From Watersipora subatra (Eukaryota > Bryozoa > Gymnolaemata > Cheilostomatida > Watersiporidae): 64,000 nt of DNA. Both the position numbers and the translations under genes were made by a program. Where the stretch lies: positions 54,187,690-54,251,689 of the forward strand of contig NC_088715.1 in NCBI RefSeq assembly GCF_963576615.1, in the 5' to 3' direction. Shown here one piece after another: positions 34,535 to 63,620 of this stretch (position 1 is the first letter of the stretch; the number at the start of each line of letters is the position of its first letter). Under the pieces are notes generated by a model that saw only the letters and a program-made list of their open reading frames with translations, did not search any database and had not been told where the DNA came from.

Positions 34535-35806
34535 TCATTGCTGGTCGACAACCTCAAGCCTAGAACATGCTGTATCATTTTGGTCATTCTTCTCTTGGGC
34601 TGTATCCGTTTCTCTCTTTACAAATGTTATTGTAGGATCCGTGGTGTGTGACTGAAAATATTCGCGGTCTTTATGACAGCAAAACAAAACTAATTCAGAA
34701 ATAAATGCGGCAATGCTAAAAAGAGCTAATGCCGAACCAACATTTAGCACAAAAGTAACAAAGTCAAAGGCTCGTGCTATGGCATCCGTACGAAGAACAA
34801 AGAGGATGCCAAAAGCTTTGATAAGTTCACGTTTTTTAGTTCCATTTTCCTTAAAATAGTGAGCATAGTAAAAGTTGTATCCAGGAGATGCAGTAGTTCT
34901 GCGAAGGGTATCAAGGCGAGTGAATTTGTAAGTTGGTTTGCAGTGACTTTCATCACAATCATAGTTGCAATCCCATTTTACTGTTATGGATATAACTCCA
35001 CCTCTGACCGCCATTTTCTTAAACGATTTTTCATCTTCATCATGATCCGCTTTTTGAGATTTTCTGTCGGCCATGCCAACAATAGTTTGAATTCGAAATA
35101 TTGGGCAGTAGGAGTCTTTATCAGGGTCATAGCGACAGCCTTTGCTCAGCATATCATAAGTAACTGACTCAATAAGGTTACTTCTTCCTTTGTCAAAGTA
35201 TGGAAAGTATACATGGTTCTTAATGAGCACTGTGAAGTTTTGAATGTAGTTTAATACAGATGTTGTCCCATTATTAGGCAAAGTTTCATCTTCAGAGGGA
35301 CACCAAGCCTCCACTATGCAGTGTCCAGTGGTCTGGTTACATTTACCTACACTCATTCCATTAACTTTGTGATATGGCTCGCCTGCAGGACTGCAATCAT
35401 CATCTGTTAGACACCTCATGATAGCGTCATGCTTGGATGAACACTGAGAATGAACTTGGTTGTCTGTTACGATGAAGTTGGTCATTACGAAGAATGAATT
35501 TGTTTGTTGTGATGCTGTTCGCAAGTCAGCAGAATCCCAGAGTCGTCTTTCCTTTGGTGTTAACTTGGAGCCACTGTACGCAATTCCCTTGAGTTTTGTA
35601 GTAAACGCTGAGATAGATTCTGTATCTCTGTATTGGTATTGCTGCCGGATTATGAAAATCCAAACGAGTATTGTACCGAATATAGCTGTCCTGGCTATCC
35701 AATTAATAGAGCCTACACACTTTGTTTCGAGACTAATCTTCTTTGTTGTCTTATAAGTGAATATGGCTGACACCGCCTTTGAAAAGAGTGGTGTGATGAA
35801 CTTCAT
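34535..35806 (-). CDS. P2X purinoceptor (ATP-gated cation channel), copy A, intronless
   Basis: Trimeric ATP-gated cation channel subunit of the plasma membrane; 423 residues, a usual P2X length. The start is the ATG at 35806, shared with copy B (the frame opens six codons earlier with GTG). The N-terminal YKTTK (18-22) fits the conserved YxTxK site. TM1 is about 36-56 and TM2 about 347-376 with NVGSALAL. The ten family cysteines are at 122, 132, 138, 156, 163, 169, 224, 234, 280 and 289, with an extra Cys284. ATP-site lysines are visible in TTKLKG (71, 73) and at 330 in RELIKAFG, and the Thr of NFT (192) is present. The NFR motif, however, reads NFY (311-313). No introns interrupt the CDS, whereas animal P2X genes usually have many. 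AATAAA lies at about 34377-34382. Confidence 0.95.
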   Translation of the reverse strand: MKFITPLFSKAVSAIFTYKTTKKISLETKCVGSINWIARTAIFGTILVWIFIIRQQYQYRDTESISAFTTKLKGIAYSGSKLTPKERRLWDSADLRTASQQTNSFFVMTNFIVTDNQVHSQCSSKHDAIMRCLTDDDCSPAGEPYHKVNGMSVGKCNQTTGHCIVEAWCPSEDETLPNNGTTSVLNYIQNFTVLIKNHVYFPYFDKGRSNLIESVTYDMLSKGCRYDPDKDSYCPIFRIQTIVGMADRKSQKADHDEDEKSFKKMAVRGGVISITVKWDCNYDCDESHCKPTYKFTRLDTLRRTTASPGYNFYYAHYFKENGTKKRELIKAFGILFVLRTDAIARAFDFVTFVLNVGSALALFSIAAFISELVLFCCHKDREYFQSHTTDPTITFVKRETDTAQEKNDQNDTACSRLEVVDQQ

Positions 35807-35905
35807 GGCTTGCTTCTGTGACACTGTGGTTTTAAAATATTATCTACAAATATTAGCAAGTATTATATAATCAGGATGACTGACCAAGATGAGTATTGTA
35901 GTATA
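35807..35905 (-). promoter_or_regulatory. Conserved 5' flank of P2X copy A
   Basis: About 100 bp upstream of the ATG are nearly the same as 62316-62408 before copy B, with GGTCAGTCATCCTGATTATA and TAATATTTAT-type AT boxes. Similarity drops beyond this block. It could hold the core promoter and 5'UTR; a TATA-like TATATAAT is present in both. Confidence 0.45.
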
Positions 35906-38755
35906 ACTTTAGACTTTTACTATTACTATTAGTAAATTTCTATACAGATACCTAGTAGTGACACACCCTCATGTGGCACTGCGATGTCATCAAGGAAACA
36001 GAACTGTTGCTGTCATTTATGTAGTGGTATTGCTTGGATGCAAAATGCGCATGTGACGTACCGTATTGGTGCCATAGAAGAGGCCTTAGCAATCACGGAA
36101 GCTGTATTTTGTGCATATGTCTATCTTTCTTGTTGCTTCATATACAGACATATGCCTTGATATAAGGAGTCACACAACTATTGCTCTACAATAGCGCATT
36201 ATCGGAACATGATTGGCTTGTCGGCCCAGTACATTGTTTCGGCACTGGCACTCTCAGGTGTGGCTGCACTATCGCTGTATGGATTTTTAGTAAATATGAA
36301 TTGTTGGAGCTAATCATCTTGGAAGTTAATGATATAAACTTTTTATAATACATACAGGTTTAACCGTATTTCAATTTTTCAAGTCCGATTTACCTATACC
36401 AGATTTATTTGTGTATAATTGTGCATGCTTAACTAGTGAATGATAGTTGGTGCAAAACATTTGTTCTCTGCCTTTTTGACTCAGACTCAGATAATAACAA
36501 CAAAAGATTTTAAGCTGTTGTTCAAATCTGTCATATTTGAGTTGTTCAAAGATAAAATTACCAGAAAAGCATCATTTACCGGCAAAATAATGGCTATATG
36601 GTTATGTATCACAAACAAGCCTGCACGGAATAGCAATTGCACAATTGTATATTCAAAGCAACAAGCAGTATTTCCTATATCTATTATAATAGTTAATTGT
36701 ATAGTGTCATGAATTTTTATAAAAATTTTCAGTGCATGGTACTTTGGTAATAACTGCATTGCACTCACTATGTTTCCATGATGAGCATAGAGTGCATCAT
36801 GCAAATTTGGAGTTGTACACAAGTTGCGTTAACATGTGAATTAAGAGTTTCTATAGACATTCGCATAATACGAATTGACTCCTGTGTCTTGTTGAAAAAA
36901 GGTGAGGAAATGTACGCTATAATTTAACAATTAGCGACGCAGTTACCGATGCATGCATAAGCAACGCAAACACATAAAAATCAATCAAAAAAGGATGACA
37001 GAAGAATTGCAAATGTTGAAAATTAAATAGCTGGCACGGTTTTTTAATAAACATCGTTGGCCAGTGCTGTTTTTATCATTCGCAAACATGGTGGGTTCAA
37101 TAAAATTTTGCAAATCACAAAGCCCGCTTAGCTTATGCCATTTATGCCATTTCCATGATGCGGTTGCTTTGCGGATTGGCTCAAATTTTCGAGCCACGTA
37201 CGTCATAGAAACACAGTGTCTGTAGCCAACCTAAAAGACTTATTGCGCGACCGTTTTTTATGTCTCTACCAAGTTCGATTGAAAATCAGTGCCTAACTTT
37301 ATCCGCTACTGTAGTATAAAGACTGTACTTCACAGCGTAACTTGGAATATGCATAATAAATTGCAGCCGTTTTATAACCATTAATCCTTCCCTTACCAAT
37401 TTATTTGAAAACTCTCTCTTATCATTGCTCAGTAATTAATATGTAGGAAAGTGACAAAGGGCATGTCAAGACAAAGAGGACTCCGTAAAGTTACAAAAAA
37501 TTATCTGCAACACTTCAATTAAATTACAGAGAATCTCATTTTGTCACGCATCACTGCATGTGTACAAAAAGCCATCATACGGATTGCACATAATTTGAGT
37601 GCTTGTTGTTTTGCTTCTGCAACTCTTGCGATGTTGCAAACTTTAATTGAGATACATAGATAAAAATGAAACTACATGTTGGTGTTTTTATATTACGGTG
37701 TCTCTTGTAGACAGTATCATTAATGTTTTTTATAATCTTTGAGGCATAAAAAATGCATGCAAAGCTCCAAACACTCATATCTATTTTATAGAATTAAAGC
37801 TTCTGGCACTGGTTTTTGTACATAGCCTAGTGGTCTAAAATATCTGACAGTACGACAACAAGTTGGGGCATCAACAAGTAAGACAAGAAGTACGACATCA
37901 AAAAAGCCATTGATCGTAACAAGAATGACAACCAGGCATGTCTCTAGTCATAGAGGTTCTCTTTTCTACAAACTCACACAAGCTCAGCCAACATCGTAGA
38001 GTGATAATGTGTGCAAAAATGATCTTAAAACATGTACAGCTTCTGCTAAGCAGACATGATCAGTCTTCAATGGTTTACTAGTGCTTGGCTACCACCCCAA
38101 AAGGTTCATGTATTCCAACAGCAAGCGATTGATTTTTGCTGTGCTTATTTGCTTAGTTATCAAAAGGACTTACACTTTCATGGTCCACGTATTTATGGTA
38201 AATGTGATTGACATTGTCATATAGACTACTTAGGGTAGAACATGGTTGGAGAAAACCTTCTCCGAGAGTCAGACTTTTTGTTCCGAAACACTTCTGTAAC
38301 TTGAAGACCTTTTGATACAATTCACAAAAACGGTGGCAAAGAAAATGGGGAAAATGTGAGAAATGTTTAAATGTTTTGAAATGAGATTAGAATACCACAT
38401 TGAAGGTAAATTGATCAACGTGTAGCATTAGAGGCTACTAAGCGGTTAATGGTTTGGGCACAGGTGATGGCTGTAGATAATGTCATACTTGCATGTGGTT
38501 GGTTGTATGTTGCTATTGTGATGCAAGAAAGCAGCGCCGTAATAATAAAGGCCGGTTGTGAAGGTAAGGTGTTGTGTGTGCGGTCGTTGCAGGTTGATTT
38601 TACATAACAAGTGCTGGTTGTTTTGCCCACAGCTACGTACGTCATTCGCAATGATAAAACATCTATTACACTTTTGTAAAGTTTAGGAAAGCAAAACTGT
38701 TTAAAAACATTCAAGAAGCAAAACTGAGGTTTTGTAAGAATAACATCTCACTAAT
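35906..38755. other. Arm A-specific insert, nothing recognised
   Basis: About 2.85 kb with no counterpart in arm B. Only chance-length ORFs (for example 36440-36712, 36487-36822 and 38415-38714) occur on either strand. No TIR or RNA gene was recognised. Confidence 0.45.
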
Positions 38756-38759
38756 GTCA

Positions 38760-39290
38760 CCAATCTGTTTATTAAATAATTGAAAATAATGTCCAATGTT
38801 TCAAGAAAATTAGTGACACTTCAAATTAAAACATTTTGATGTTACCAGTTTACAGGCTTCATTAAGTTGACATTTCAAAGAAGCTATTGTCTTAAAACTA
38901 TAAACTAGTATTCAGTAGCTAATCTTTAAAATCTTAAAAAGTATCAATAATAAATATTGTAAGAAATTAGGAAAGATTAGTGAGACTTCTAAGCAGAAAC
39001 CTTTAGCGATTTACCTTTTTACATAATTCATGAAGCTAAAACTTTGAAAAAAGTTCTGTTCTTCAGCATGTAATATCCAAAATAACAGCTAGAATCTAGC
39101 GACTAACTTTTAAAATCTTAGAAAGTATACATAATAAATAAACTTGCCGATTTTTGCGATGCTGATTTGTAAACTGCCTTCATAACCTTGACACTAAGTG
39201 TCTTTCAACACCAACTGTAGAGTTCTAGGCAGCAAGCTTAGGTTTATGCTGACCTTGTTCTGACGCCTACCGGTAGACTTATAATAGCTA
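38760..39290. repeat. Diverged tandem repeat, about 165-170 bp, three units
   Basis: Landmarks ATTAGTGACACTTC (38811) and ATTAGTGAGACTTC (38977), and AAAATCTTAAAAAGTAT/AAAATCTTAGAAAGTATA about 170 bp apart, mark successive units. Arm B has the corresponding sequence at 61160-61490. Confidence 0.75.
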
Positions 39291-39900
39291 AATTTCGAGG
39301 CGTGGCTCAACATTACATCTCTAGAAATAATTGTTATTGCAACATAAGGCTCACTGAGATTTTGATTGGTCATTTGGGCCACATGACTTACTAACAACTA
39401 GAGTCCCTTTATCTTATGATTCTTTTAAAGCTTTTGTAATAACTTGAACAGCGGCAGTCCTGTTTAGATGTATCTTTAAAAGCAATGAAAATCCATGTAG
39501 ATCACTAAAAAATCTCACAGAGTAATTATAGTCAGACTCCTTTTTGAGAAAGCTGCCGGGAGGCTTTTTGAGTTGGGTCTGCGGACTATGGATTGATATA
39601 GAACATGAGAACTTGGACGCTTTCACAAACACCACCAATTTTCTTTGTGGGAATTCAACCCCTGACCCACTAAACATAAATCAGCGTAGTAACCCTAAGA
39701 AACCGCTGATGTTAATTGAAAATATATAAACGGGAAAAAACATTCTGTATTGAAGTTAATTATAATAATTGCCTATGTTCAACATTTCCATTTTCATCAA
39801 AACAAAGAGCTGGGTAACCACAGAAGAATAGCAATGAACCACCTTTTAAAATCACATTGAGTCTGGCAAACTCAGGTTTCTTTTAGATCTATCTTCTCTA

Positions 39901-41280
39901 GCTCTCGTAAGCATTGATGGTTGTCCCTCATAACAACCTTTAGACAAATTTTTGAATGTTTCTTTTGCCACTGGTACTTCAATTCTTGATTAACTCTGCT
40001 GATCTTTCTTAAAAACTCTTTAGTTGCAAGCTGGCTACTAACCAAAATTTAAAAGAAAGCAAACAGGAATATATAAAAATTTATTATGGTATGTCATTAG
40101 AGGTTGCTGCTAGTCTTCTTCTAAGTGCAAATTGACAATTACTTTTGGCATCAATTTTTAATCTGAGCATTATAAAAGCTATAACATTTTGTTGACTTTA
40201 AATATTGAAACATCCTGGTAGTCAACTTATCTCAAACAGTAAAAACAGTGGCAAATGATACAAAAATACTTATATCTTTAGTTAAAATCTACTAAGATTT
40301 TGTGCAATTCATCTTCAAGACGTGAGAAGCAAAAATGCATAGAAACTATTTTAATATAATTATGTGATGCTTTTCAACATTTTTACAAGTTTTGTTTTAG
40401 GCTTTGATGTCATTAATATAATTTTAATGAATTTTAGTTATTTCAAATTTATCATTTAATTTGACTGTTTAATTTAGATGAGTAAATTTAGTTTTCTTGA
40501 ATGTTGACATTGTACCATATTTAAAATTGGTTCACCAGTCTTCTTAAGATGTCAGGTCACCTAAGGGTAAAATAAAAATACTTGTTCAATCAAAAAAATC
40601 TTCATCAGTTCACTGTTAGCTTCTCATCTGATAGATTGAAAAAATGTTACTTTAGTTTCTTTTCAGCATTTAGGAAACTTTATATTGGTTTTAGTCATCT
40701 TTAGCTAAAGGACAATTTAAAGAACGTTTTTCTGTTTACTGTGAATTAGTCTGCACCAGGAACTTAATGACAATTTTTTTGGCATTTTCTCTAGCTTTCT
40801 CCTTACCTGTTGTCAATTAATCACTGATTCACTATTTGATCAAGTTGTTTTGCTCAGAAATAAAGCTGTGCTAGCATGAAATACCCAAAAAGAGATACTT
40901 AAATTGGTATTTATAAGGTATTCATTGCATAATCTTAGTAAAATTTAATGTTTGATATAAAAAAACATGCTAATATATCCTCGGTTTATGGGAGGCTTGT
41001 ATCTACCTTATTGTACAAGATTTTTATAATCAAACTCAAGGTTTCTTATTATCTCAGGGTATATATAATGCATAATATTATTATGCAATAATAAAGTTAG
41101 TTCCCTTAAGGAATATTTGCGTTAGATGTTTATGTCATTAGCAACAGCACACTCAGACTGAAATTAAGTTTATGTAAGTGTGTCATAACTTGGAAAGTTT
41201 TTATATACATGCTTTAGGTAAAATTTGCTCGTAGCTAATAGACAAGATAATTCACACTAAATGAGCCAAATGTATAATCA
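39901..41280. other. No recognisable gene
   Basis: AT-rich sequence just outside arm A, with no ORF of interest and no repeat noticed. Confidence 0.45.
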
Positions 41281-41284
41281 CAAG

Positions 41285-41480
41285 CTTTCATAGACATAAG
41301 CATCCATAAACATAAACTTCCATTAATATGTGTTACAGAGATTTGGTCTACAGGAAGATTTGGCTACAAGAGGTTTCACCTATGAGAACGTTCGGCATCA
41401 AGATTTTTTGTCTACAAGTGGTGAAAGGCTACATCTATAATTTCTGGAAATTATGTCTACAGTTATGAAGATTGTGCTTA
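41285..41480. repeat. Short-period repeat, inverted relative of 44400-44680
   Basis: CATAGACATAAGCATCCATA is followed by CTACAGGAAGATTTGGCTAC and AAGAGGTTT words. The same words appear on the opposite strand at 44410-44480, and CATAAACATCC words at 44500-44680. The two tracts bracket the MULE fragment. Confidence 0.55.
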
Positions 41481-41549
41481 CTAATCGATCAATTAGTACG
41501 TAGATAATGGAAAAGAAACTTGAAATATTGAAAAAAGATTGCAAAGATG

Positions 41550-41890
41550 CTACTGATAGATGTCACATATCCTTCAAAACCAGTATAAAATATGCTACTG
41601 ATAGATGTCATCTATCCTTCATCACTAATATAAAATATGCTACTGATAGATTTCATCTATCCTTCAACACTAATATAAAATACATGTATGCTACTGATAG
41701 ATGTCATCTATCCTTCAACACCAATATAAAATATGCTACTGATAGATGTCATCTATCCTTCATCACTAATATAAAATACATGTATGCTACCGATAGATGT
41801 CATCTATCCTTCAACACCAGTATAAAATATGCTACTGATAGATGTCATCAGATTCTATCCTCTAACAATAATATAAAATACGTGCGAATA
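41550..41890. repeat. 45/51-bp minisatellite
   Basis: Seven to eight units of GCTACTGATAGATGTCATCT, ATCCTTCAACACCA and ATATAAAATA (45 bp, or 51 bp with an extra ACATGT). The unit is a multiple of three, so a 128-codon frame (41507-41893) repeats ATDRCHLSFNTNIKY. I regard that frame as a by-product, though translation cannot be excluded. Confidence 0.9.
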
Positions 41891-42757
41891 TAAAATCAAA
41901 GAACACATCATCAATTTATCACCTCCTTTCTTTACTCCTCCCACTGCTACTACTACTACTGGTGGCGCTTCGGAACCCCCAAAACGCTTACCCCTGTGCT
42001 CAGAATCCAAAGGCTCCGGTAGATGCTCTGAGTCTGGTAGAATCATCAACACCTTAGAGTGAGAGTACCCATTTTTTGCTACAAATTATTTTTTATTGTT
42101 AGTTTGTAATTTATTAATAGCTTGCAACTCATAGTGAACTAGTATTAATAATTTGATACTTTTGGCATTGGTCTGTTGGCCTTTAGTGAGTTAATAGTAA
42201 AACGACTGTGAGTAAATCAATGAACCAAAACAATCTAATAATTTGCAATCACATAATAAACAAATAAATTGTTGTTTTATAGCTCAATTATTGTATTCTT
42301 TTGGTCAATTTTGGTATGTTTATTGTCTTATTTATTGCTAATTTATAGATAGTAATAGTATAACAAAGATATATATCATTGGTATACATGTTATATAGTG
42401 GTTCTTATTATTTGTGTTGGCTGATTGATCAAAATATTGAGCCATGACTTCTAACGTTCTATTGCTGAGGATTGGTAATAGTGATCAAAATTTGTAATAC
42501 TATAATAAAAAGTTCATCCTTTGAGCAATAAAATTAGTCTAAAACTGTAAAATAAAAAAAATCAGCAGCATTTTGCAGACTGTACACTACAATTTTACAT
42601 GCAAGTACTTTAATATCTAAATTGCAAGTTCCAGGTACTAACTTTCAGAGTTTGTCACATATATCATCCAAAATAATATTGAAAAACCTTAAACTAAACT
42701 TCTTCATTATTCTGGAAGTCGCTGTATCACCCTCAACATATTCATTCCGTAGTTTCA
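41891..42757. other. No recognisable gene
   Basis: A Pro/Arg-rich minus-strand frame at 41855-42052 lies over a (CTA)n-like patch. The rest is AT-rich and featureless. Confidence 0.4.
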
Positions 42758-43081
42758 TCAGCTTTCCCTAAACTGTCTTAGATGATTTTTTAGCCTTTTT
42801 GTGATTTTCTTAGCTGATACGAGTTTCACATTTATTACTGTCAGTTTAGGTTCTCCCTTTAGTTCTGTAATTAATTGGTAGAGATTTAGAGGATCATTGC
42901 TAAATGCCCTGTTGTTGAATCGCTGTTGCCATCCTTCCGCCTTGTTTTTGGTTCTTGGAGAACTTGTGAACTGAGACGATGAGGTGAGCGACCATATAGT
43001 CAATTTCATCCATGTGGACCTAAATCTTAGTAAGTTTTGGTATAATGTATTTATTGGCATACTTGAGTGGACATAGTGCAA
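42758..43081 (-). pseudogene. MULE-type transposase C-terminal fragment
   Basis: The 107-codon frame contains SPRTKNKAEGWQQRFNNRAF, then SNDPLNLYQLITELKGE. This matches the pattern R-T-N/K-N-x-x-E-G-W-x-x-x-F/L-N followed by a LYxLI-LK helix found after the catalytic domain of Mutator-like (MULE) transposases, often with FLYWCH fingers in animals. No catalytic DDE region is recognisable upstream, so only a tail remains. Bracketing inverted short-period repeats may be relics of its ends. Confidence 0.55.
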
Positions 43082-44040: not shown

Positions 44041-44049
44041 TATGTGTGG

Positions 44050-44215
44050 TTTATTTGTTAGTTTAACGTGTGTTTGTATGTGCATGCGGGCATTCGTGCA
44101 TGTGTGTGTGCACGCGCTCGTGCGTGTGTGCGTGCTTGTGTATACATATATCGTACATGTAATATATATGCTGTGTACTATATATGTATATTTATTGTAT
44201 ACCCACTTATATACC
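44050..44215. repeat. GT/GC-rich alternating purine/pyrimidine tract
   Basis: TGTGTGTGCACGCGCTCGTG and similar sequence, grading into TATATA. A second Z-DNA-prone tract like 6966-7160. Open frames on both strands are by-products. Confidence 0.85.

Positions 44216-44891: not shown

Positions 44892-44892
<1 letters not shown>

Positions 44893-44930
<38 letters not shown>
44893..44930. repeat. (TA)n microsatellite
   Basis: Pure TA repeat followed by a T9 run. The overlapping Ile/Tyr frame is an artefact. Confidence 0.95.
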
Positions 44931-47710: not shown

Positions 47711-48064
47711 ATAATATAATGCCTCTGTCTGCATATACTGGATATCTTTAAAATAATTATTTACTTCAACATATCATAGATAAGATGTCAGTTGTCCGAA
47801 AAAGGAGGCTAAACTTCTGTGTACTACTCAGTACAAAAGGCTAATCTTCCGCTTGGTACCAATTAATACTGGATAGTACTTTGTTAATTGGGCACATCAG
47901 TTCCATCGCTTGACTACTCATACGTAAGTAACGTAACGAGCATAATGAAGTACAAAGTTTTTCATTATATAAGTTCAAAAGTTACGAAACATTTCAATAA
48001 AGGCTAGTACTTAGAAACTCACCCAACTCAGGAAATAACAGAACTAGCTAACTAACCAACTAGC

Positions 48065-48349
48065 ATGGATAAACAACACGAATATAGCACAGATGAAGAT
48101 GCAATGCTATTAGAAAGATCATCAGAGGAAGATTCATCTAAGGACAAAATATCTACTAAAGTTAAACATCGTTCGATGCTGATAATCATTGTAGCATTGA
48201 TATTCTTCTCATATTGTGTAGACACTCTCCTTTTTCCATTCTTTCCTAATGTCGCCATTGAGAAAGATTTATCAAGCGCTGAAGTTGGAGTTGTTTTTGC
48301 CGCTTTTGATTTTGCAAGATTTGTAGCAGCTCCGACAGCTGGATCAATG
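48065..48349 (+). CDS. MFS transporter, first coding exon (SLC18B1-like)
   Basis: Membrane solute transporter of the major facilitator superfamily. The exon encodes 95 residues and ends on a GTAAGT donor in phase 0. An acidic, serine-rich cytosolic N-terminus (residues 1-30, MDKQHEYSTDEDAMLLERSS) is followed by a Lys-rich turn, TM1 (about 38-58, MLIIIVALIFFSYCVDTLLF) and PFFPNVAIEKDLSSAEVGVV leading into TM2. The PFFP plus IG/VG-F pattern fits the drug:H+ antiporter-1/SLC18 branch. Later exons are at 52680, 56589 and 59463. The exon joining TM2 to TM4 was not found between 48350 and 52679. The start ATG has an in-frame acidic N-terminus and the usual animal context AGCATGG. Substrate cannot be told; amines or polyamines are known for SLC18 relatives. 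Confidence 0.75.
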
Positions 48350-51300
48350 GTAAGTGTGTTTATAACTGTATTTGTTAAAATATAGTGAACTAAGATGAGT
48401 GGAAATGTTGACAACATTAGGGCAACCGTTAGGTTGACTTCGTTGCGCTTGGTGACTAAAGTTTATATTGAAAAGAAAATTAATTTCAATGAAATAGTAA
48501 ACAGACAATGAAAAGACCCTAAATTGCCCTAAAAGTATATCATATTATGACTACGTTAGAAAAGTATAAGAAGCTTTAGACTTTCTGCTACTTTTCAATG
48601 AACAACAAAGATTCAAATTCCATCAGGATTAGTTAAACGAAACGAGGTGTTGTATGTATCGGCTACAGTTCTGTTAGGCTTTTACAATTTGGAAAAGATA
48701 AAAATGTTTTATTTTAAAAGAAAAAGAGCAATCGATAGTCAGACACTCTTTCCCATACCACCAATTATAGCTGCACCTTGAACCATAACTTGTTGCTTAA
48801 TGGTAGAGCATTTTATACCCAAAGCTTTTTTATAGAATGTGTTGTTTTAACTGAGCAGCTTAATGAACTTTGATTTCTGATGAATAATAAGTTTAAAGAG
48901 ATTTGGAGAGCTACTCTGGTAATAATAACAGATTACACAAGCAACAGAACTCAACTAATGAAATGTTACATTGAAGCCATGCATTTAAATTATCTGGCTT
49001 CTACCTGTTATATGTATATATATACCTGTTATATATACCTGTTATATCGTATGCTTGGGCTCTTAAAGTTTCAATTAGAATGCAACATCTCTGGTGATTT
49101 AATACACATCAAAGATCAAAACTTAAATGTACTTGCTTACTCTCGATTTATTGCAACAGTATTTGTTTCAAATCAAACCTCATAAGAGCCAAGTTTACAC
49201 AAATTTCAAAAGTGTTTAAAGCACCTTTGCGATTGAAAATAGCAAAAAAAGAGAAGTGAAATGATATTATTTGTAGGCAAACGAAAACTAAGATATTTTT
49301 AAAATAACATGACTAAGCTACAAAAAACACTGTGTAACTTTAAGTAGATGTATATAAATTAAATTCGAGCATTTATACTAGAACAGAACATATCATGGAA
49401 TGACAATTACAATTAACGAAAATGTATTCATGATTGTGAATAAGTTTTGATGTAAAACTAGTAATTGTTTTTTTATCTTTTACTACATTTCAAGTATTTA
49501 AAGGCATAATATGCTCTTAACATAGAGCATTAAAAGCAACTTGCGTTTCTTTAATATTTGGAGTTTAAATGCTATAGCAAATCAATTTAGCTTTCACCCA
49601 CCATCGTGTACAAATTGTAATGTCAATTTGTATAACCAGTGTTGGAAAATTCTGCTCCATATGTTAATTGCAACTATTATCTTTGTTACATCGGTTTAAA
49701 AAAACAAGTATTCATAGATTTGCTGTGGTTTTCTCTCTTTCATATTTTATTGCATCTTAAACATAGTAATGTAAACTCAATTGATAATTCTAAAAATATA
49801 AGAAACTTCCTTTTTCCCTAAAATGGCTATTTAAAAGTCCTCTAAGCAGACTATGCAATGCAATATTTTCACACTTTTAAAACCATTTTGACCAAGCCGA
49901 ATGTCATTTATTTCAAATCTGTACGAATCAATCTTTTTTTCAATCTCTAGTCATGACTTCAGACAGTTGGACCGGCAACCACTTCTCTTATAATAGTAAA
50001 GACACTAGAGCGTCTGTACACATTATACTGCTAGCTAGCTTTCACAATATTTGAAATTTTCGCTCCACTATGATAAAAAAAATGTGAGGTAGCAACTAGT
50101 AATAACTTCTTTACTGATCATCAAAGTGATGACCTTATGCAGCAAGTTTACAAAACTGACTCAATTGTTACACTGAGATTTAAGTAGTAAGCCTACTTAG
50201 AAGCAGTGCAGTTTGCAATAAAAGGTTGCCTTTGTCATCGATAAATGTTAAACTTCAGATACAATGTGCTCATAAAATTTTCTTACACTGTAGTTTAGCA
50301 TATGCCACCCGAAGAAACTGTGTGCTATTGGGTCAATGGTTGCAGGAGCAGCATGCATATCCTTTGGGTAAGACATACAAGTATGAAGGTAAATAGTTAA
50401 GAAATACAAGCTAGATATAGTTTGAATGCTATACAACTGAGTTCAGCTATACAAATAATTTTGCTGTTAAAAAAGCCTAAAACTCTGTATCACATCTTGT
50501 TTTGACAAATAAGTACACTTTGTTGACCATGAAAGGATAAATTACACCACATGAAAAGTTGAAACATTCTCACAGACATTTATGATCATTGACTGACTTT
50601 CATATTTACATGTAGATTCTTTCTTAGATTTTCATAGAATCCAATCATAAACTTTCTGTGAATAGTATTATAACATTATTGTGGGTTATAATAGTACATC
50701 TGTAAACTAGCAACTAGTAACAGGTGACTTGCTAATTACACTCTAACATGCTGACTGTTTATGGTAATGCTTCATTAAAAAGTTTATGGCCTTAGAAGAC
50801 CAGAATTTTTTATTTGCCATAATGCTACCAGAAATGTCAGGGAAGCTGTGGTATATAAACTTATGTAACTTGTCATGCCACTACCAGAGCGAAAACTCAC
50901 TCTCCTCCATAGAACTAGCACATCTGAAAAGAACTGCTTCTTAAATCTTTGACTTTAACTTGAATGCTGCGAAAGGCTCAAAGTAGCAAAAGGCTGAGTT
51001 GTAACTGATATAGGTTAAAAGAATATAAAGAGAAAAGGGTGTGTAATACCAAGGGCAAACATTGGAAAGATAAATTACACTTTTTAGTAGAAAATACTTT
51101 TTATCACACTATTTTGCTCAAATAAAAAATCTGTCGTCAGGTTTACCCGAGTTAGTTGAAGTAAATTGTTTGTTTTATACTAATCTTTGTTCGATTTAAG
51201 TTTGATCTAGCTCATGACCCATTTCAAAAATATTACAACATACCAAAAGCTTCGGATCAACTATTTTAATAAATGCTGGCAAAAAATGCAGACATAAAGG

Positions 51301-54030: not shown

Positions 54031-54084
54031 GATACTAAATTAAAGAGGTACGAACTAAGTATAATTACTACATTCTATTTAAAA

Positions 54085-55462
54085 AATAAAAAAATTGTGA
54101 TATTATTATGCTTTATTATTTATCTTGAGGCGTTTACTAATGTTCTAAAAAAGAATCAAGGAGATTGACTAACCAGAAGCTGAGTTATAGCCAGCCAAAC
54201 ACAGGTCTACCAAAATACATCAGTGTTTTGGTAATGCTCATATTAGCATCATTGTATGACGTATGAAATCGACTTGTGTGCAATTGGTCAATTAAGCCAA
54301 CTAATGCGCTCTCCTATAATAATCACAGCGTTTTAATTGGTTTAATCCCTGGAAGTACAGAACAATCAAATTGGGCCTAACAATCATTGCTCTGAGAATT
54401 CCGAGCCAGTTCCTTTGACGTGTAGATTAGTTTTAGCATGAAATAATTACACCCATCTATTATTTCGCAACATTTCGCTATCTTGCTAGTTCAGCTGTTT
54501 TGTTGTTTTCCCACTTACAGTAGCTTCCCTATTCAGACTCATCTTTAGCGCTGTTCAGATTGTTTTATCTATAGCTAATAATTTGAATCAATTAAATCAT
54601 TCATCAATCTCGACTATCATTTAAAATTTTCTACAAATTATATTAGTTACATCATTTATTCTATACGCAGTTATATTATTATTTTGTATAATATGCATTA
54701 TGATTATTATAATAATCATAAAAAAAATCATAGATAAGATAATAGATACATAGAAGAATCAAATGTTATCGTTCTTTTTTCTTACAGCAAGAGTAGCGCG
54801 GTTAAATTATTCTTTTTAAAATTATGGCTGTAGTGAACTTACAGTCTGTTAATAGTGACGATAATCATGAAAATCAACTGAATGCTGCAGTAGGTACACA
54901 GTAGAAAGATGATGAATGAACAAAAATTCACATTCCTATTTGTTATTCTGCAACCCTAAACAAACTGCAAATCACGGATATCGTATAATATAGACTATAC
55001 GTGCGCCGTTCGTTAAACAGAGGATCTTCGGAGCATATCCGTAGAGATCGAGTTAAAATTTGAAACACAATAGTCAAAATCTGCTCTTCTGTTTTGAAAA
55101 ATCATGACAAGGGGTTGTGGGCAACTGCCTTTACCCCACAATGTTTTCTTGGTTTTTCTGAGAAACCAGAGCTAGTCTGTAAATTCTTTACTATCGCGAG
55201 AAGCGTTTCACATTTCGTAGCCTAAAACAATCAGTAAACGTAACGACTGTAGGGTACGCAACTTTGGCACATGTCCAATAAGTCGATTTCATACGACACA
55301 ACTGTCGGGATTTTCGAAGGGTTTTTCCTCTGATTCGTTTTTAGGTAAACCTGTGTTTGGCTGGCTATATCTCAGCTTCTGGTGTGCCGATCTCCTTGAT
55401 TCTTTTTTTAGAACATCAGTCAACACCTCAAGATAAATAATAAAGCATAATAATTTCACACT
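54085..55462. mobile_element. Long-TIR/fold-back DNA element, about 1.38 kb
   Basis: 54090-54215 is the inverted copy of 55345-55460. Shared words are TTATTATGCTTTATTATTTA, TCTTGAGG, AAGAATCAAGGAGAT, CCAGAAGCTGAG and ATAGCCAGCCAAACACAGGT. The arms are about 120 bp at roughly 90 percent identity by eye. The interior of about 1.1 kb shows no long ORF. It lies in an MFS intron. Confidence 0.85.
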
Positions 55463-56588
55463 TTTTCTATTCTTTAATATCAAAGTAATGACCATTTATG
55501 GATCTGATCTTTGACAATCAAGTATGATGCTTATGTTGAAGCAAGGTTATGCGTGTTTGTGTGAGCATCGCTGCACAAGGCTTTTGTACTTTTCACTAAA
55601 AGAATCTGAGCCCAAAGGCTAGAAATACTCATAAACTAAAGACATGATCATTTTCAGGAAGTAAATTAAGATTTAATGCTATTCTTGTTGCCACCAGTGA
55701 ATTTTGATGAGAACCGAACTCCAAAGAATAATTTGAAGTTCAATAAGTCTAGATTGTTGGACAACAGCTTGTCTATGCTACTAAATGGTTGTTGCTAGAT
55801 AAAAAATGACAACATTTCAGTAACTGCTATAAAATATCAGACCTATCATACATTTAGTCTTTCAATTTTGAACTTGTATCTATAGAAATTTTAGTTATCT
55901 TTAACTCAGGCGCTACAATACATACTGTAAAGATGAAGCTAGTAAAGTCTGAAAGTTGATCAAACGTAAAATTAAAAAACGAAATTCATATAAATAAACC
56001 TAGCAACAAAAAATGTTCACAGTGAAATTTTTTAAATTTTTGGTATACATTTTCAGCACAAATAGAAAAGCCAGCCTAACAAAAATAAATAAGTGTGAAT
56101 ATAATTTTTATTTTATTTTAAATATTTTAATATTGTTTCAGTGCATTGCTGGTGAATAAGCAGTTACGTAAGGCTATATGTACTCCTTACCGGCATGGGG
56201 GCCCTTTAGCAAAAGTGAAATAGAACCAGTTTTTCATAGTTCACAAATTCTATTTTTGTAGATGATTTATACACGCATATATTTTTTTATTGGCGATCAT
56301 TTTGTTTTAAACTTAATTTTTAAAAATCTTGTTATAAAACAAAAAGGGGCAACATATATCCTTTAAAATATGCTGCTATCATTGCTTATTAAGTAGGACA
56401 AATAGAACAAGGGTGGTTATTTCTTACAAAAATGAGTAGAGCTGAAACATTATTTTAAGATTGTTAATACTTTTTTTAGAATTGGTCATGCCCTTTGTAG
56501 TTAATAGCTTTTATCATCAGATGCTTTTACAATAAATTCTCAATTATTTTTTTCTGATCCCAATTGATTTAGATGTCTATGTTGACAG
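55463..56588. other. MFS intron, nothing recognised
   Basis: AT-rich intron sequence with no ORF and no repeat noticed. Confidence 0.4.
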
Positions 56589-56657
56589 GCATTTGTGGAA
56601 ACAGCTAATGTGGTGGGATATGGATTTGGACCAGCTCTTGGAGCATTTCTTTATAAA
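56589..56657 (+). CDS. MFS transporter, internal exon (motif C, TM5)
   Basis: CAG acceptor and AAA|GTAAGT donor, phase 0 on both sides, so it joins exon 52680-52827 directly. The 23 residues AFVETANVVGYGFGPALGAF plus LYK carry the GxxxGPxxG antiporter motif C of MFS TM5. Confidence 0.8.
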
Positions 56658-56904
56658 GTAAGTTTTTATGATCATGCTGGGTGTTGGTGGGTAAGAAAAC
56701 TTATTGAACAAATTCTTTTTGATCATCTTGGCAAAACTTCACATAAATAAAAATTGATTAGTAACGAAAGCAATTTCCAACTTATTTCTGGATATTTTTG
56801 CGAAATACCACATGTAATGACAACTTATAAAATTCCAAACATATAAGATTACAAATATAGAACATACAAACAAAATCTTTCTACTAAAGAAGTTTATCAA
56901 TGAT

Positions 56905-57245
56905 CAATTGTGATAGTTTTTGATGTTTGAGGTCATCTGACTGCCAGTGTGCTCGAAGATTAGAATTGACAAACTTTATCATGGTAAAACTGCTTCAATC
57001 AAGTAGAAGGGCAATTATTTTGTCTATAGTTGCAAAATTACTAGCATATAAGAGCCGTTTAATGCTGCAGCTTGAATTAAATAGCTTATATAAACTATAG
57101 CAACCATAGCAACAAGTGAGGTCATTTTGCACACGTGTTTCGTCTGAGCATTTTCACCACGACTCAGTTTCAGCGATTTTAATCTTCAAACGATTTGGCT
57201 GTCATGTCACCTCAAACATCAAAAACAGTAGCAACGGATAAAAAA
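56905..57245. mobile_element. Fold-back MITE in an MFS intron
   Basis: GTTTTTGATGTTTGAGGTCA at about 56918 faces the inverted CACCTCAAACATCAAAAACA near 57210, with further pairing of CTGACTGCCA and TTGGCTGTCA and of AGATTA and TAATCT. Related single arms occur at 46215 and 60200. Confidence 0.8.
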
Positions 57246-59462
57246 AATGCTGATAATTTCTGATAGAATCAAATAATTGTTTTTGTAAGTTCATTTTTGA
57301 GTGAGCGGATATCAAACCTTCAATTAGGCTGTAAACGCTGTACTTTTATCCAATTTGCTATGAAATTGCAAAAGAATCATGCTACCTTTGGACAGTTGAT
57401 GCTCTTAAAAAGCTGAAGTGGTATAAAGATGTAATTTTGTAAAGATTTTCTATTACATATCATAGTTTGAAAGTTGGGATGTTTTACAATAGCTGCTTTT
57501 CTGCAAAACAAATTTTTTTTATTATAATTTGATTTGCTAATGTTTTTTCCTAAAATAGGTAGTATGTTTTATGGTTTTAACTTTTTACCAAATGTTTTTA
57601 CTGAAAAACATCTTAACAATGGACTAGCATGACTGACATGGTTATGAAGCCTTCAAATACTCACAACAACAATTTGAAACCATAAAAATTTAGCTAGCTA
57701 AAACTTAGATTATGGTAAAATATTTTGGCAAAACTAGAAAAAAACATTTCAGAACGTAATTTTTTTAGCATCAAAGATGAGGTGTTAACAAGAGTTAGCC
57801 ATGTTTTCCTGCGTTAAATAATATTGAGGCTGTTGGAGTTGCAATAGGAACAAAAACCGATCAATAGTTTGAAGAAAAATATCACTGCTATCGCTATCGT
57901 TAAATAACGTGTTGAAAAAAACTATTTAGACCTATCAATTTATGATAGTATAAATAAAATGTTTGTTGGTTAGACTTGGTTGTCTAATAAAATTGAACTA
58001 GGTGATTGATTTACTAATTTTTGCTATGAAAAAGGTATCATACCAAAACTATCAAATCATTACATAGCTCTGATACTTATAATGGCTAAGCTTAGTAAAA
58101 TATTTTTGCTAGAGTATTACATTTTAAATAGGCATAAATTTTCATTTTGTGGTCGGTAACAGCTTCACTCTAACATATTAAATAAGTGTTATTGACCAAA
58201 TAATCTCTCAACCAAAAACCTCTCTTTTTATTGATAAGCAATTTTCTTGCTTACGAACCATCTCAGCAACACAAAAGTAAAGTTTTGCAAGTTTGACTGC
58301 ATTTGCCAACAAATTAACTAGAAGGTAGGTCAAAATTCTTCAATAGATTTTTTAATTTAGCTCTTCTTAGCATTCGGAGGTCATACTGCACGTGTAGAAT
58401 ACAAGATAGGGAGCGGAAAGTTGGTTGTCAAATGACTCAGAGCTGGGTTAATGAGCCATACATTTATGTCATAGGTCAATTCTTATACAACTAAACCGTT
58501 TAATTTCATGCAAACTATTTTAATGCCATCCTTTTTTAGCCTCTGGTTTTAATGTTGTGATTTCCTTTAAAACAAACAGTATAAACAAACTGAAATTCCT
58601 AAAAGAACAAAGTGTCTAAGATGTTAAGAGCAGCAAACACAGCTCAAGTCTGAAGTTTCTGGTACACTTACAGCATCTCGTTGTGCAAATATATTTAAAT
58701 AAAAATGGATGTTTTAATAAAGTTTGCTACAAGCTCATTGTAGATATTGAGCAAGTTGAACTTTGACTTTTAGAAATTCAAATACACTTTTAACCAGATA
58801 CAAAAAAACACAGATAATGCGATTCGTTTTGACTGATGCTTATGAGTTTGGCAACAGATGAGTTTACACTTATATTAGCACTAGATACTATTACTAGTCA
58901 GGCGAAACACCATTTATTATAACTAACAACCTCAGCTAGCAGTTTCCCACGCAGACCTTCAAGCTATGCTAAAGCACTGATCAATACCCAGTAGAGTATT
59001 TGTAGTGGTTTGGTTTTTAATCAGTCAAATAGGTGATTCCACAAGTAGGAATGTTAAAATCATTTCAGACCTGAGCAGAAACTCTGAATGCTGTAAGTGG
59101 AAGTTGAGTCACTGCTAACCTCTCCATAATCGCAAACGTATAGACTAAATTAGTGCGCAAGTGGGCTGACGATCACTGAGAAAACCCTTCAATTCCAAAC
59201 ATGTAACAATAAACAATATTTTGTAGTCCAATATGCTTATTTGTCAATTCAAATATGGTATGTTATGCCTCTGATGTTGGTGATAGCTTGTTGCTGAACG
59301 AGATTTTATAGAAATTTAAAAAAAGCAATTTGCACGATAATCAGCTTACAATAGCTGATGCACCTATTCATTGTGCTTATTACCTTCGCTGATGGTGATA
59401 ACAAGTTTTAAACACTCAAATGAAACGTTATTCAATGACGTTTCGTTATGTTTAGTTTGTAG
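57246..59462. other. MFS intron, nothing recognised
   Basis: AT-rich intron sequence. A small phase-correcting exon is expected here, because the exon at 56657 ends in phase 0 while the exon at 59463 opens in phase 1, but none could be supported. Confidence 0.4.
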
Positions 59463-59543
59463 GGTATACCGGAATGTTTGGAATATTTGGGGCTTGCTTA
59501 CTGATTCTACTCCCTATCTATTTTTGTCTCATTCCTAGAGTAG
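59463..59543 (+). CDS. MFS transporter, internal exon (TM6)
   Basis: TAG acceptor and GTAAGT donor, phase 1 on both sides. It encodes GYTGMFGIFGACLLILLPIY then FCLIPRV, which fits TM6 and the start of the central loop of a 12-TM MFS protein. TM7-12 were not found before 62.3 kb: the gene may be truncated by the arriving duplication arm, or it may continue beyond the window with P2X copy B inside an intron. Confidence 0.65.
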
Positions 59544-60075
59544 GTAAGTTCAGCTTTCAAGCTTCTATTCATTTTGCAGGCTTAGTTGTACTTTTTGAAA
59601 GTTCAACTGGCAATGTCATGGCAACAAAACCGTTATTGAAAAATAACACTAATGCTCCATTCTGTAACAAAGCTACTAGCTTAGCTACTAGCCCTTGCAG
59701 ATTCACTCCTCTTCTGATTTTTCTTATTATAATTTTTTTTTATACTTTGTTTATGTTGTGACCTTTATAAAATGAGTCCATGCAGACACTTGACTGGCTA
59801 TATGCTATCAATAGACAACTGAAGTTTTTTTCAAAGAAGATAGTTAGAGTTATAAATCAAGAAATACCGCAATTTATTTTAATGTCGAACACCTACCATA
59901 ATGAAAAATTAGATTGCATAACATTTGCAAGCTGTTTCACACAACCCTCTGACCTCTACTGATCTAACAGTAAGCCTACGATTTACTCTTCTGAAACTTT
60001 CAAAAGTGTTATTACAAAATTAATTTTTGTAGTTGCACTTATGTAACTATTAAAATTAAAGTTTTATATAGTTAT

Positions 60076-60082
<7 letters not shown>

Positions 60083-60117
<35 letters not shown>
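60083..60117. repeat. (TA)n microsatellite
   Basis: Pure TA run. Confidence 0.94.
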
Positions 60118-60119
<2 letters not shown>

Positions 60120-60199
60120 TGGTTTCTATTCATTTTTGCTTCTCACTTTTTTAAGATGAACTTACACAAAATATCAGTATTTTGCTATAATTTGCAAAC

Positions 60200-60420
60200 A
60201 TCGTTTTTGATATTTGAGTTGGTTTGACTGCCAGGAAGTTTTGAGATTAAAATTGATAAAACTTGATGCCAGTTAAAATTAGTTAAAGATGATGTAAATT
60301 TGCGCATAGAAGAACACTCGCAACAACCTCTATTAGCATAGCATAATAAATTTTTATGTATTTCTGCTTGCTTCTTTATAAATGTGACTATTAGACAGTC
60401 AGAGACTGGAAAGTTCTTCG
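60200..60420. repeat. Dispersed repeat member related to the 56905 MITE
   Basis: TTTTTGATATTTGAGTTGGT, TTTGACTGCCAG and GAGATTAAAATTGATAAAAC match the left arm of the element at 56905. Confidence 0.6.
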
Positions 60421-61440
60421 GAAAGATCAGTAGAGTTAAACAAAAATTGAACTACCAGTGAGAAAAGAAACATTCAAAAGTTTGTTTCATATCGTGATAG
60501 GAAACAAATAAATGCTGAAAGGTAGAGAGGATGAATCTGAATGAGTTGGGTGCTTGCAAACCCTATGAGATTGTAATGTGTGGCTTATTCCATTTTTTTG
60601 TGGTTGCCCAGCCCTGAAATCCTTTGTTTCGATAAAAGTGAAGTTTTTAAACATAGACAAGTCTAGGAATTAAGCTCAATACAGATTGTTTCATTTTACC
60701 ATTAATTCATTTTCAATTAACATCAGAGTTTTTTAGGGGTCACTACGCTAACTTATAATTTGTGATCAAAGGCTGAGTCACATCGGGACCATTGGTCGTG
60801 CTAGGAAAAGCTTTCAATGACAAGTACTTCTGTTTTATATCAGTCCATCGTCTGCAGACCCAACTCGGAAACCCCCATTGGCTTCCTCACAAATGTTTCA
60901 GGTTATAATCAATCTGTGAGAATTTTTTTAGCGATCTACTTAGATTTTCATCAATTGCAAAGATTCATTTAAACAAGACCACCACTGTTCAAATATTCAC
61001 CAAAGCTTTTAACGGATAACAAGATATACATGTAGGTATTCTAAGTGTAAGTAAACATGTGACACAAGCTGCCAATTAAATCCTCAGTGATCGTTATACT
61101 GTTATTTGGCAATAGCAATTGTTTTTCAAGGAAGTTTGTTGAGCCAGACGTAGATATATAGCTATCATAAGTCTACCGGTAGGCGACAGGACAAGGTCAG
61201 CATAAAATTAAGCTTGCTGTTTAGAACTTTACAGTTTGTGTTATAAAGACACATCAGTATCATGGTTATGAAATGCAGTTTAAAAATATGTTTTGCCAAA
61301 ATTTGCTTGCTTATTTGTTATATATACTCTCTTAGATTTTAAAGGTTAGTTATTAGATACCAGCTCGTAGTTTTAAGATTGGATGTTGGGGGAGCGATTT
61401 CTTTAAAGGTTTCAGCTTCATGAAGCATTAAAAGTGGAAA

Positions 61441-61574
61441 AGTGGTCAGGCGATAAAGTTTCAACTTAGAAGTCTCACTAATTCTTTCATAATTCTTTAC
61501 AACATTTATAATATATATCTTTTGAGATAGTAAATATATATATATATATATTAATACACGTATGTAATATATAC

Positions 61575-61606
<32 letters not shown>

Positions 61607-61695
61607 TTACTATCTCAAAAGATATATATTATAAATGTTGTAAAGAATTATGAAAGAATTAGTGAGACTTCTAAGTTGAAACTTTATCGCCTGAC

Positions 61696-61699
<4 letters not shown>
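61441..61699. repeat. Perfect long palindrome with an AT-rich loop
   Basis: The left arm starts AGTGGTCAGGCGATAAAGTT and the right arm ends with its exact complement, ACTTTATCGCCTGACCACT. The arms of about 100 bp match without a visible mismatch around a TATA/CATA loop of about 50-60 bp. The left arm belongs to arm B of the segmental duplication; the right arm is an extra inverted copy. Confidence 0.93.
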
Positions 61700-61780
<81 letters not shown>

Positions 61781-61795
61781 TATACATATATATTA
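61700..61795. repeat. (TA)n microsatellite
   Basis: Long TA run directly abutting the palindrome, ending in ATACATATATACATATATAT. Confidence 0.95.
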
Positions 61796-62315
61796 ACTAA
61801 AAGCAGGTGCAAAAGGATATAAAAAGAGAAAGCTTCTCATTTTAGTACAATCGCGTCTGATGAGTGCATCACACGAAACAAATTTGTAGTGCAATTACTA
61901 AAAGTTTACATTCTTCAGAATAATTTTTCAAATAAATATATATTTATATATAAATATATCTTTAACAGTCTTTCATCTAATTTTCATTATCTTAGCAGAA
62001 AAAGACATTTTAAACACCATATGTCAAACTAATTATTTGATTTTAGTGGCCAACTGTTGCCTTGTTTGGCATAGTATAAAAAACATCTCTATTTGAAATG
62101 AAATTATTGCCAATAAAGTTATATATATATATATATTTGCAAAAAATATTACGGAGAGAGTAAACTAGGCAAAAGCTAAGCATAAAATTGTCATCTCACG
62201 ATGCGTGACGAAGAGATATGCTATCAAATTTCAGTGCTATGTTGCAGATACATTTTTTTAAATCTTTTTTTCTTTTCTGACATGCCCATTCGATGGTTGA
62301 AATTAAATTTGAGCT
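61796..62315. other. Spacer before P2X copy B, nothing recognised
   Basis: AT-rich. A short TA run lies at about 62121-62141. No counterpart in arm A was seen. Confidence 0.4.
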
Positions 62316-62408
62316 ACAATACTCATCCTGGTCAGTCATCCTGATTATATAATATTTATTAATAATTGTAGATAACATTTTAAAACCAGGGAGGCACAGA
62401 AGCAAACC
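62316..62408 (+). promoter_or_regulatory. Conserved 5' flank of P2X copy B
   Basis: Nearly the same as 35807-35905 read on the minus strand, including GGTCAGTCATCCTGATTATA and a TATATAAT box. The likely 5'UTR/core promoter was duplicated with the gene. Confidence 0.45.
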
Positions 62409-63620
62409 ATGAAGTTCATCACACAACTGTTTTCAAAAGCAAAGTCAGTCGTATTTACTTATGAGACGACAAAGAAGATTAGTCTCGAAACAAAGTGTGT
62501 CGGCTCTATTAATTGGATAGTCAAAACAGCTATCTTTGCTACTATACTCGTTTATATCTTCATTATCCAGCATCAATATCAATACATGGAAACAGAAGTT
62601 ATCTCAGCGTTTACTACAAAACTCAAGGGAGTTGCATTTAGTGACTCAAAGTTAACACCGAAAGAAAGACGACTCTGGGATGCTGCTGACTTACGGATAC
62701 CATCACAAGAAGCAAATTCCTTTTTTGTAACGACCAACTTCATCGTAACAGATAATCAAGTTCATTCTCAGTGTTCATCCCAACGTGATGTTTCCACAAA
62801 GTGTCTAACAGATGACAACTGCTGGCCTGCAGGAGAGCCATATCACAAGGTTAATGGAATGAGCATAGGTAAATGTAATAAGACCACCAGATACTGCATG
62901 GTAGAGGCTTGGTGTCCCTCTGAAGATGAAACTTTGCCTAATAATGGTACAAAATCAGTATTAAACTACATTCATAACTTCACAGTGTTTATTAAAAACC
63001 ATGTCTACTTTCCACACTTTGACAAAGGAAGAAGTAACCTTATTGAGTCAGTTTCTTATGATAAGCTGAGCAATGGCTGCCGCTATGACCCTGATAATGA
63101 CCCCTACTGCCCAATCTTTCGAATTCAAACTATTGCCGGCATGGCGGACAGAAAATCTCAAAAAGCTGATCACGATGAAGATGAAAAATCGTTTACAAAA
63201 ATGGCTGTCAAAGGTGGGGTGATATCCATAACAGTAAAATGGGATTGCAACTATGACCACGATGAAAGCGACTGTAAACCAACTTACAAGTTCACCCGCC
63301 TTGACAACCTTCATGGCACGGCTACATCTCCTGGATACAAATTTCACTATGCTCATTATTTTAAGGAAAATGGAACAGAAAAGCGCGAACTTATCAAAGC
63401 TTTTGGCATCCTCTTTGTTCTTCGTACGGATGCTGTAGCACGAGCCTTTGACTTTGTTACTTTTGCTCTAAATGTTGGTTCGGCGTTAGCGCTGTTTAGC
63501 ATTGCCTCAATTATTCCTGAAATTGTTTTGTTTTACTTGCATAAACACAGAAAATACTTTCAGTCACAGACCAAGGATCCTACAATAACATTTACAAAGA
63601 GAGAAACGGATACAGCCTAA
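62409..63620 (+). CDS. P2X purinoceptor (ATP-gated cation channel), copy B, intronless, C-terminally truncated
   Basis: Paralogue of the minus-strand gene at 34535-35806; 403 residues that align with copy A over their full length without a gap. YETTK (18-22) keeps the YxTxK site. TM1, TM2 (NVGSALAL), the ten family cysteines, lysines 71, 73 and 330 and the NFT threonine are all present. The NFR position reads KFH (311-313), so both the Asn and the Arg are replaced. Codon 404 is TAA where copy A has CAA. Beyond it the frame stays open for another 20 codons that match copy A's tail, ending at TAA 63680-63682, so the truncation is a single recent change. The AATAAA used by copy A is altered here (CACTAAAA). 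Strand and flanks show it came by DNA-level inverted duplication. Confidence 0.94.
   Translation: MKFITQLFSKAKSVVFTYETTKKISLETKCVGSINWIVKTAIFATILVYIFIIQHQYQYMETEVISAFTTKLKGVAFSDSKLTPKERRLWDAADLRIPSQEANSFFVTTNFIVTDNQVHSQCSSQRDVSTKCLTDDNCWPAGEPYHKVNGMSIGKCNKTTRYCMVEAWCPSEDETLPNNGTKSVLNYIHNFTVFIKNHVYFPHFDKGRSNLIESVSYDKLSNGCRYDPDNDPYCPIFRIQTIAGMADRKSQKADHDEDEKSFTKMAVKGGVISITVKWDCNYDHDESDCKPTYKFTRLDNLHGTATSPGYKFHYAHYFKENGTEKRELIKAFGILFVLRTDAVARAFDFVTFALNVGSALALFSIASIIPEIVLFYLHKHRKYFQSQTKDPTITFTKRETDTA

Follow-up and report, generated by a model that had tools for sequence, protein, structure and literature searches.

Can a P2X receptor give up the arginine of its adenosine triphosphate (ATP) site and still be maintained as a channel? 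The question is raised by two P2X genes, here called copies A and B, that lie in opposite orientation in a window of 64,000 nucleotides of the bryozoan Watersipora subatra (contig C8, i.e. chromosome 8, positions 54,187,690-54,251,689), the window being the whole stretch of DNA analyzed. In both copies the Arg of the Asn-Phe-Arg (NFR) motif is replaced, the remainder of the channel is largely retained, and purifying selection on the two genes is clear. The genes and their ATP-site residues are located as follows (window positions):

34535-35806, minus strand: P2X coding sequence of copy A, one open frame of 423 amino acids plus stop
62409-63620, plus strand: P2X coding sequence of copy B, one open frame of 403 amino acids plus stop
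34868-34876, minus strand: NFR-equivalent site in A, N311 F312 Y313 (codons AAC TTT TAC)
63339-63347, plus strand: NFR-equivalent site in B, K311 F312 H313 (codons AAA TTT CAC)
35588-35596, minus strand: K71-L72-K73 of A, aligned to zebrafish K70 and K72, kept
62619-62627, plus strand: K71-L72-K73 of B, aligned to zebrafish K70 and K72, kept
34817-34819, minus strand: K330 of A, aligned to zebrafish K316, kept
63396-63398, plus strand: K330 of B, aligned to zebrafish K316, kept

The range 34535..63620, under which an earlier note on this DNA described the pair, also takes in about 26.6 kb of intervening DNA. The two proteins are 82% identical and both match the Pfam profile PF00864 over positions 1-357 of 361, with 339 bits (E 3e-101) for A and 350 bits (E 2e-104) for B against a curated cut-off of 27. 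Each matched 34 chains of solved structures, and for each the top match was the 'P2X purinoceptor 4' chain 9bqh; we take 9bqh to be the human and 3h9v the zebrafish protein. All ten ectodomain cysteines are present in A and B, as they are in the other ten P2X genes of the genome described below, and the N-terminal TxK/R protein kinase C consensus is found at T20-T21-K22 of both copies, opposite T-P-R of the P2X4 chain and without a gap. The C-terminal P2X motif YxxxK, which follows the second transmembrane helix, is replaced by YFQSH in A and YFQSQ in B. An AlphaFold model of A, built with B alone as a second alignment row, reached a mean predicted local distance difference test score of 29 and a predicted template modelling score of 0.19, and nothing was drawn from it.

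At the ATP site, alignment to the human and zebrafish P2X4 chains is gap-free and sets GYNFRFA of the vertebrate proteins against GYNFYYA in A and GYKFHYA in B (alignments to five of the 34 matched chains for A and two of 34 for B). The equivalent of zebrafish P2X4 Arg298, which contacts the gamma-phosphate of ATP, is thus Tyr in A and His in B, and the equivalent of Asn296 is Lys in B. An earlier note had claimed that Arg is missing from both copies, that the copies differ from each other at this site, and that lysines 71, 73 and 330 and the disulfide cysteines are retained; the alignment bears out all of this and places no neighboring Arg at the position. Copy B has lost the Asn too. Twelve pocket positions were compared (zebrafish 70, 72, 188, 189, 191, 193, 217, 232, 296, 297, 298 and 316, from the residue list in PMC3874471), with the numbering anchored on N296-F297-R298; K70, K72, F188, T189, L191, K193, L217, I232 and K316 then fall on the expected letters. 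Eleven of the 12 are kept in A and nine in B, the changes in B being L191F, N296K and R298H; the complementary-face residues F188, T189 and K193 are kept in both. Zebrafish residue 299 is Tyr in both copies, and the same Phe-to-Tyr change at the equivalent position of human P2X2 retains 113% of signal (PMC11063903).

Among 419 P2X homologues the Arg is 99% conserved, as compared with 61% for the preceding Asn and 51% for the Phe (PMC11063903), and because of this conservation we do not regard the change at position 298 as chance. Engineered mutants indicate what it may cost. In human P2X1, R292A and R292K lower ATP potency 90-120-fold and R292C 17-fold, and in our reading of a flattened table rat P2X4 R295A/K apparently fall in the non-functional group (PMC3874471). 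Because of the potency loss in P2X1 and the grouping of the P2X4 mutants, an altered ATP affinity of A and B, as the earlier note proposed, is plausible by analogy; overall, the interpretation in that note is partly supported. In a scan of human P2X2, 43% of signal remains with R302K and 25% with R302Q, and R302 is termed 'readily substituted in yeast' (PMC11063903), from which it follows that partial function without the Arg is possible.

The loss of the Arg is not peculiar to the pair; it is common to a four-gene subclade and to eight of the 12 P2X genes recognized in the genome. We searched 783,720,542 bases in 239 contigs and found at least 12 P2X genes: each of two genome searches returned 16 matches, which we count as the 12 genes and, in two rows left out of that number, an incomplete tandem piece on contig 6. 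No stop lies inside any of the 16 matches of the first search. Besides A and B, the genes and their NFR-equivalent residues are:

C10 gene (contig 10): NFR
C3 gene at 6.45 Mb (contig 3): NFR
P3, C8 at 54.006 Mb: NFR
C3 gene at 36.2 Mb: NYR, with two introns of 394 and 9956 bases by GT-AG reading
P5, C8 at 54.032 Mb: NFH, 11 of 12 pocket positions kept
P8, C8:54383594-54384709: NFH with K72D and T189R, both pocket faces altered, nine of 12 pocket positions kept
C2 gene, C2:3648100-3649203, plus strand in its locus (1459-2670): SYE with K70R, K72H (RIHG for KxKG) and K316L, four of 12 pocket positions kept
C6 trio, C6 at 30.20-30.27 Mb: NFT with K70N, K72A and K316R, an N-terminal extension, ten cysteines kept

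The Arg is therefore present in four of the 12 genes. The extent of the remaining conservation was measured over 69 columns that are identical across six P2X sequences with the Arg (four of W. subatra and two vertebrate): A keeps 64 of these, B 62, P5 64, P8 59, the C2 gene 49 and the C6 genes 41-44. Only the columns at zebrafish 28, 56, 298 and 349 are altered in all four of A, B, P5 and P8, and 298 is the only listed ATP contact that loses charge in all four. Judged from their sequences, the members of the C6 trio have an ATP site that is largely dismantled. Next to the middle C6 gene lies an incomplete P2X piece in which one segment is repeated (C6:30236914-30237492; minus-strand frame, 2922-3608 of its locus).

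A tree of the 12 genome proteins with human and zebrafish P2X4 places P8, P5, A and B, all on chromosome 8, in one subclade (support 99/97), with A and B as sisters (94/95) and the Arg-bearing P3 as sister to the subclade (100/99). Removal of the 13 ATP-site columns leaves the topology unchanged, with supports of 99/97, 96/96 and 96/98. The deeper forks are weaker (88-93) and the C10 gene takes no firm place; in this tree, which is without Dictyostelium or Branch 1 rows, A and B group with vertebrate P2X4 and the chromosome-6 trio stands on a long separate branch. Parsimony calls for a minimum of three switches between Arg and not-Arg and four state changes, with Arg taken as the older state from its conservation elsewhere, and by this reasoning the loss of Arg would predate the A/B duplication. 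The codons at 298 are CAT in P5, CAC in P8, CAC in B and TAC in A. On the evidence of this one codon, CAC or CAT in three genes and TAC in A, His is the likely ancestral replacement and Tyr one further step. We suggest that Arg was probably replaced by His before the subclade split, and that His-to-Tyr in A and Asn-to-Lys in B followed.

Copies A and B lie within an inverted pair of segments that reaches beyond the coding sequences:

34226-35901, minus strand: inverted duplicate that encloses A and shares 84.2% identity with 62314-63991 across 1682 columns
62314-63991, plus strand: partner segment around B in the same inverted pair of about 1.7 kb

In the flanks, 84 of 95 positions upstream and 225 of 305 downstream of the coding sequence are identical between the copies. 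Because flanks on both sides of the coding region are shared, the duplication looks DNA-mediated and not like a fresh retrocopy. Upstream of each copy lies one member of a further pair of inverted segments with 71% similarity (38922-40358 and 60111-61537), which could stem from the same duplication or represent a family of repeats.

The two copies differ by 72 synonymous changes over 273 sites and 82 non-synonymous changes over 936 sites (Fisher p 9e-13). Tests of this kind covered pairs among A, B, P5, P8 and the C6 trio, and each of them points to purifying selection; p was 3.5e-12 for A-P5, 6e-14 for B-P5, 1e-17 for A-P8 and 5e-6 to 4e-11 for the pairs of the C6 trio, which are constrained too. 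Non-synonymous change is in threefold deficit in A-B, A-P5 and B-P5. The ratio of non-synonymous to synonymous rates was computed for five of the ten pairings of A, B, P5, P8 and P3 (A-B, A-P5, A-P8, B-P5 and B-P8), and for A-B it is 0.26 (NG86) to 0.34 (YN00). When the three distances are split by hand, the A and B branches each receive about 41 non-synonymous and 34-39 synonymous changes, and this branch-wise division argues that both are constrained. With purifying selection this clear, A and B are not pseudogenes.

Combining these data, we suggest, at about an even chance of being right, that A and B are intact and maintained subunits in which an ancestral Arg-to-His substitution has left a weak ATP site, that they consequently either need high ATP or work in heteromers, and that a His contact would be aided by protonation. 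In a presumed trimer, ATP would still dock on K70/K72/K316 and T189/K193, and with a weak gamma-phosphate contact the channel would require a high ATP concentration. Alternatively, A and B may open chiefly as parts of heteromers that include one of the four paralogues with the Arg. Protonation would strengthen the contact made by the His of B, P5 and P8, and in B the Lys perhaps restores charge beside the beta-phosphate.

Several points weigh against this explanation: (i) the P2X2 scan names Gln and Lys alone as partly working at the Arg, and for the Asn it names no more than Ser and Thr (PMC11063903), and because they go unnamed there Tyr, His and Lys may be non-functional at the sites where A and B carry them; (ii) Glu E172, the equivalent of rat P2X2 E167, which pairs with the Arg in the closed state (PMC3874471), is kept in A and B although its Arg partner is gone; (iii) basic residues gained in the ectodomain could reach the phosphates; and (iv) the pH idea is a purely chemical argument, a gain at low pH would be contrary to the family norm, in which acid inhibits Lymnaea P2X, P2X1, P2X3 and P2X4 (PMC3510196), and A is without a His at the site.

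Other explanations share much of this evidence. It is possible, though we doubt it, that A and B are obligate regulatory subunits whose own principal face does not bind ATP usefully and which would modify trimers with Arg-bearing paralogues in the manner of silent subunits. Four such paralogues are at hand in the genome, the complementary face is intact in both copies, and a pocket mutation confined to one subunit is sometimes tolerated in a heteromer, as is the broken-site subunit rat P2X2 K69A alongside rat P2X3 (PMC3874471); but rat P2X3 K63A cost P2X2/3 much potency (PMC3874471), and a non-binding subunit would have no need of K70, K72 and K316, which are all kept. A switch of ligand, by which the subclade would answer to ADP, another nucleotide or a non-nucleotide and have dropped the Arg for want of a gamma-phosphate to hold, appears unlikely. 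It would fit the nearly surgical nature of the loss, with four of 69 invariant columns altered in all four genes and only 298 among the listed contacts, as well as the strong constraint under which A, B and P5 have evolved since the Arg was lost and the three separate Arg/not-Arg switches that the tree requires. However, both copies retain T189 and I232 of the adenine side, A also retains L191, and the sequence points to no candidate ligand.

We consider it very unlikely that a basic residue from elsewhere fills the space of R298 and leaves ATP binding normal. A, B and P5 have gained basic residues at zebrafish 39, 84, 93, 116, 123, 128, 248, 278, 286 and 325 and in insertions. Most of these gained positions presumably lie away from the pocket, none of the listed contact positions has gained a basic residue, and the motif itself is bracketed by G-Y and F without a gap. 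In favor of such a replacement, the left flipper takes in position 286 if the numbering of rat P2X4 D280-N293 is applied (PMC4232510), and position 93 adjoins 94, whose Cys mutant cost human P2X1 100-fold (PMC3874471). Hardly credible, finally, is the view that A and B are duplicates under relaxed constraint or in decay that are turning into pseudogenes, with the Arg lost as the channels cease to matter. B stops 20 codons short of A, at one TAA inside the A-B match, and its resemblance to the tail of A goes on past this stop (window 63618-63680); moreover, the branches of A and B (0.089 and 0.12) are longer than that of P5 (0.028). The absence of internal stops from all 16 genome matches, the retention of ten cysteines and most invariant columns, and the deficit of non-synonymous change in all three pairs of A, B and P5 stand against decay, and we reject a pseudogene reading as largely refuted by purifying selection.

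Comparison with characterized channels places A and B close to vertebrate P2X4, with which they share the domain over nearly the full profile, the ten cysteines, KxKG, F188/T189/K193 and K316, and from which they differ in the residues at 298 and, in B, 296. Natural P2X proteins without the NFR Arg occur elsewhere: Dictyostelium P2XA is one, and Dictyostelium channels still pass ATP-evoked currents (PMC2633282, PMC10620158). The Branch 1 protein ChP2X1 of Clytia likewise is without the Arg, but Branch 1 proteins such as ChP2X1 miss two of the four charged contacts (PMC10620158), whereas A and B miss the Arg only and cluster with vertebrate-type P2X. Variation of the motif is also natural in Ostreococcus tauri P2X, which reads NIR but keeps the Arg, and in Schistosoma P2X, which has YT for FT (PMC2633282). 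The human P2X2 variants at R302 and N300 concern the same two residues but are engineered, and the scan leaves Tyr and His unnamed as functional at the Arg (PMC11063903). That the human P2X7 polymorphism R307Q affects the same Arg was considered and ruled out, R307 being the equivalent of zebrafish R312 (PMC3646254), which is kept in 12 of 12 genes.

A single open frame holds the whole profile match in 11 of the 12 genes, which refers to the domain and allows for additional exons that are non-coding or short and terminal. A TTGTAG site 37 bases 5' of the starts of A, B and P5 suggests a putative intron in the 5' untranslated region of these three. Eight exons are reported for P2X genes of Daphnia and Nematostella and vertebrate-like intron positions for Aplysia (PMC7943599), and mammalian P2X7 has 13 exons (PMC3360091); the W. 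subatra genes have fewer exons than these 8 to 13. A single P2X gene is reported for representatives of the molluscs, annelids and flatworms (PMC7943599), and for this reason twelve mostly single-frame genes in another lophotrochozoan are unexpected. P2X families are nonetheless reported as expanded in giant clams (PMC11700175), and three P2X genes stand in tandem in Clytia (PMC10620158). Carriage of the genes by a DNA transposon was considered and rejected: the excerpt of PMC9587614 concerns only the C-terminal ballast domain of P2X7, for which A and B are too short. No P2X relative was found in the viral_contigs (137 pattern matches) and genome_contigs (136) collections, and none of eight papers that name both Bryozoa and P2X is, judged by title, about bryozoan P2X.

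Elsewhere in the window, an exon-like frame between A and B (48056-48385, plus strand) gives a weak major-facilitator match (E 0.0016) under the curated cut-off, and large tandem arrays include those at 72-2497, 24883-26121, 29329-29755 and 41543-41849, with units of about 120, 359, 24 and 45 bases, respectively. Rfam gave no match in the window at gathering scores. A compact Hox-like locus at C1:7.37-7.49 Mb includes a gene with a KLTGP tail, which we take to be the mark of lophotrochozoan Lox5.

The NFR Arg has been treated as near-essential for ATP gating. That this near-universal residue is replaced while the channel is otherwise intact suggests a natural retuning of the ligand site. It is conceivable, if rather improbable as a whole, that the P2X family of this bryozoan lineage radiated in an intron-poor form, that its ATP site was dismantled stepwise and repeatedly under selection for the scaffold, with the Arg alone lost in the chromosome-8 subclade and the Arg together with several lysines on chromosomes 6 and 2, that some of its members now open in response to a stimulus other than ATP, and that the NFH and KFH members are proton-dependent intermediates. 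One genome that holds NFR and NYR genes beside NFH, NFY, KFH, NFT and SYE genes offers a natural mutant series for the role of the Arg contact, and the P2X set of W. subatra is a place to seek channels that may have acquired new ligands or pH control.

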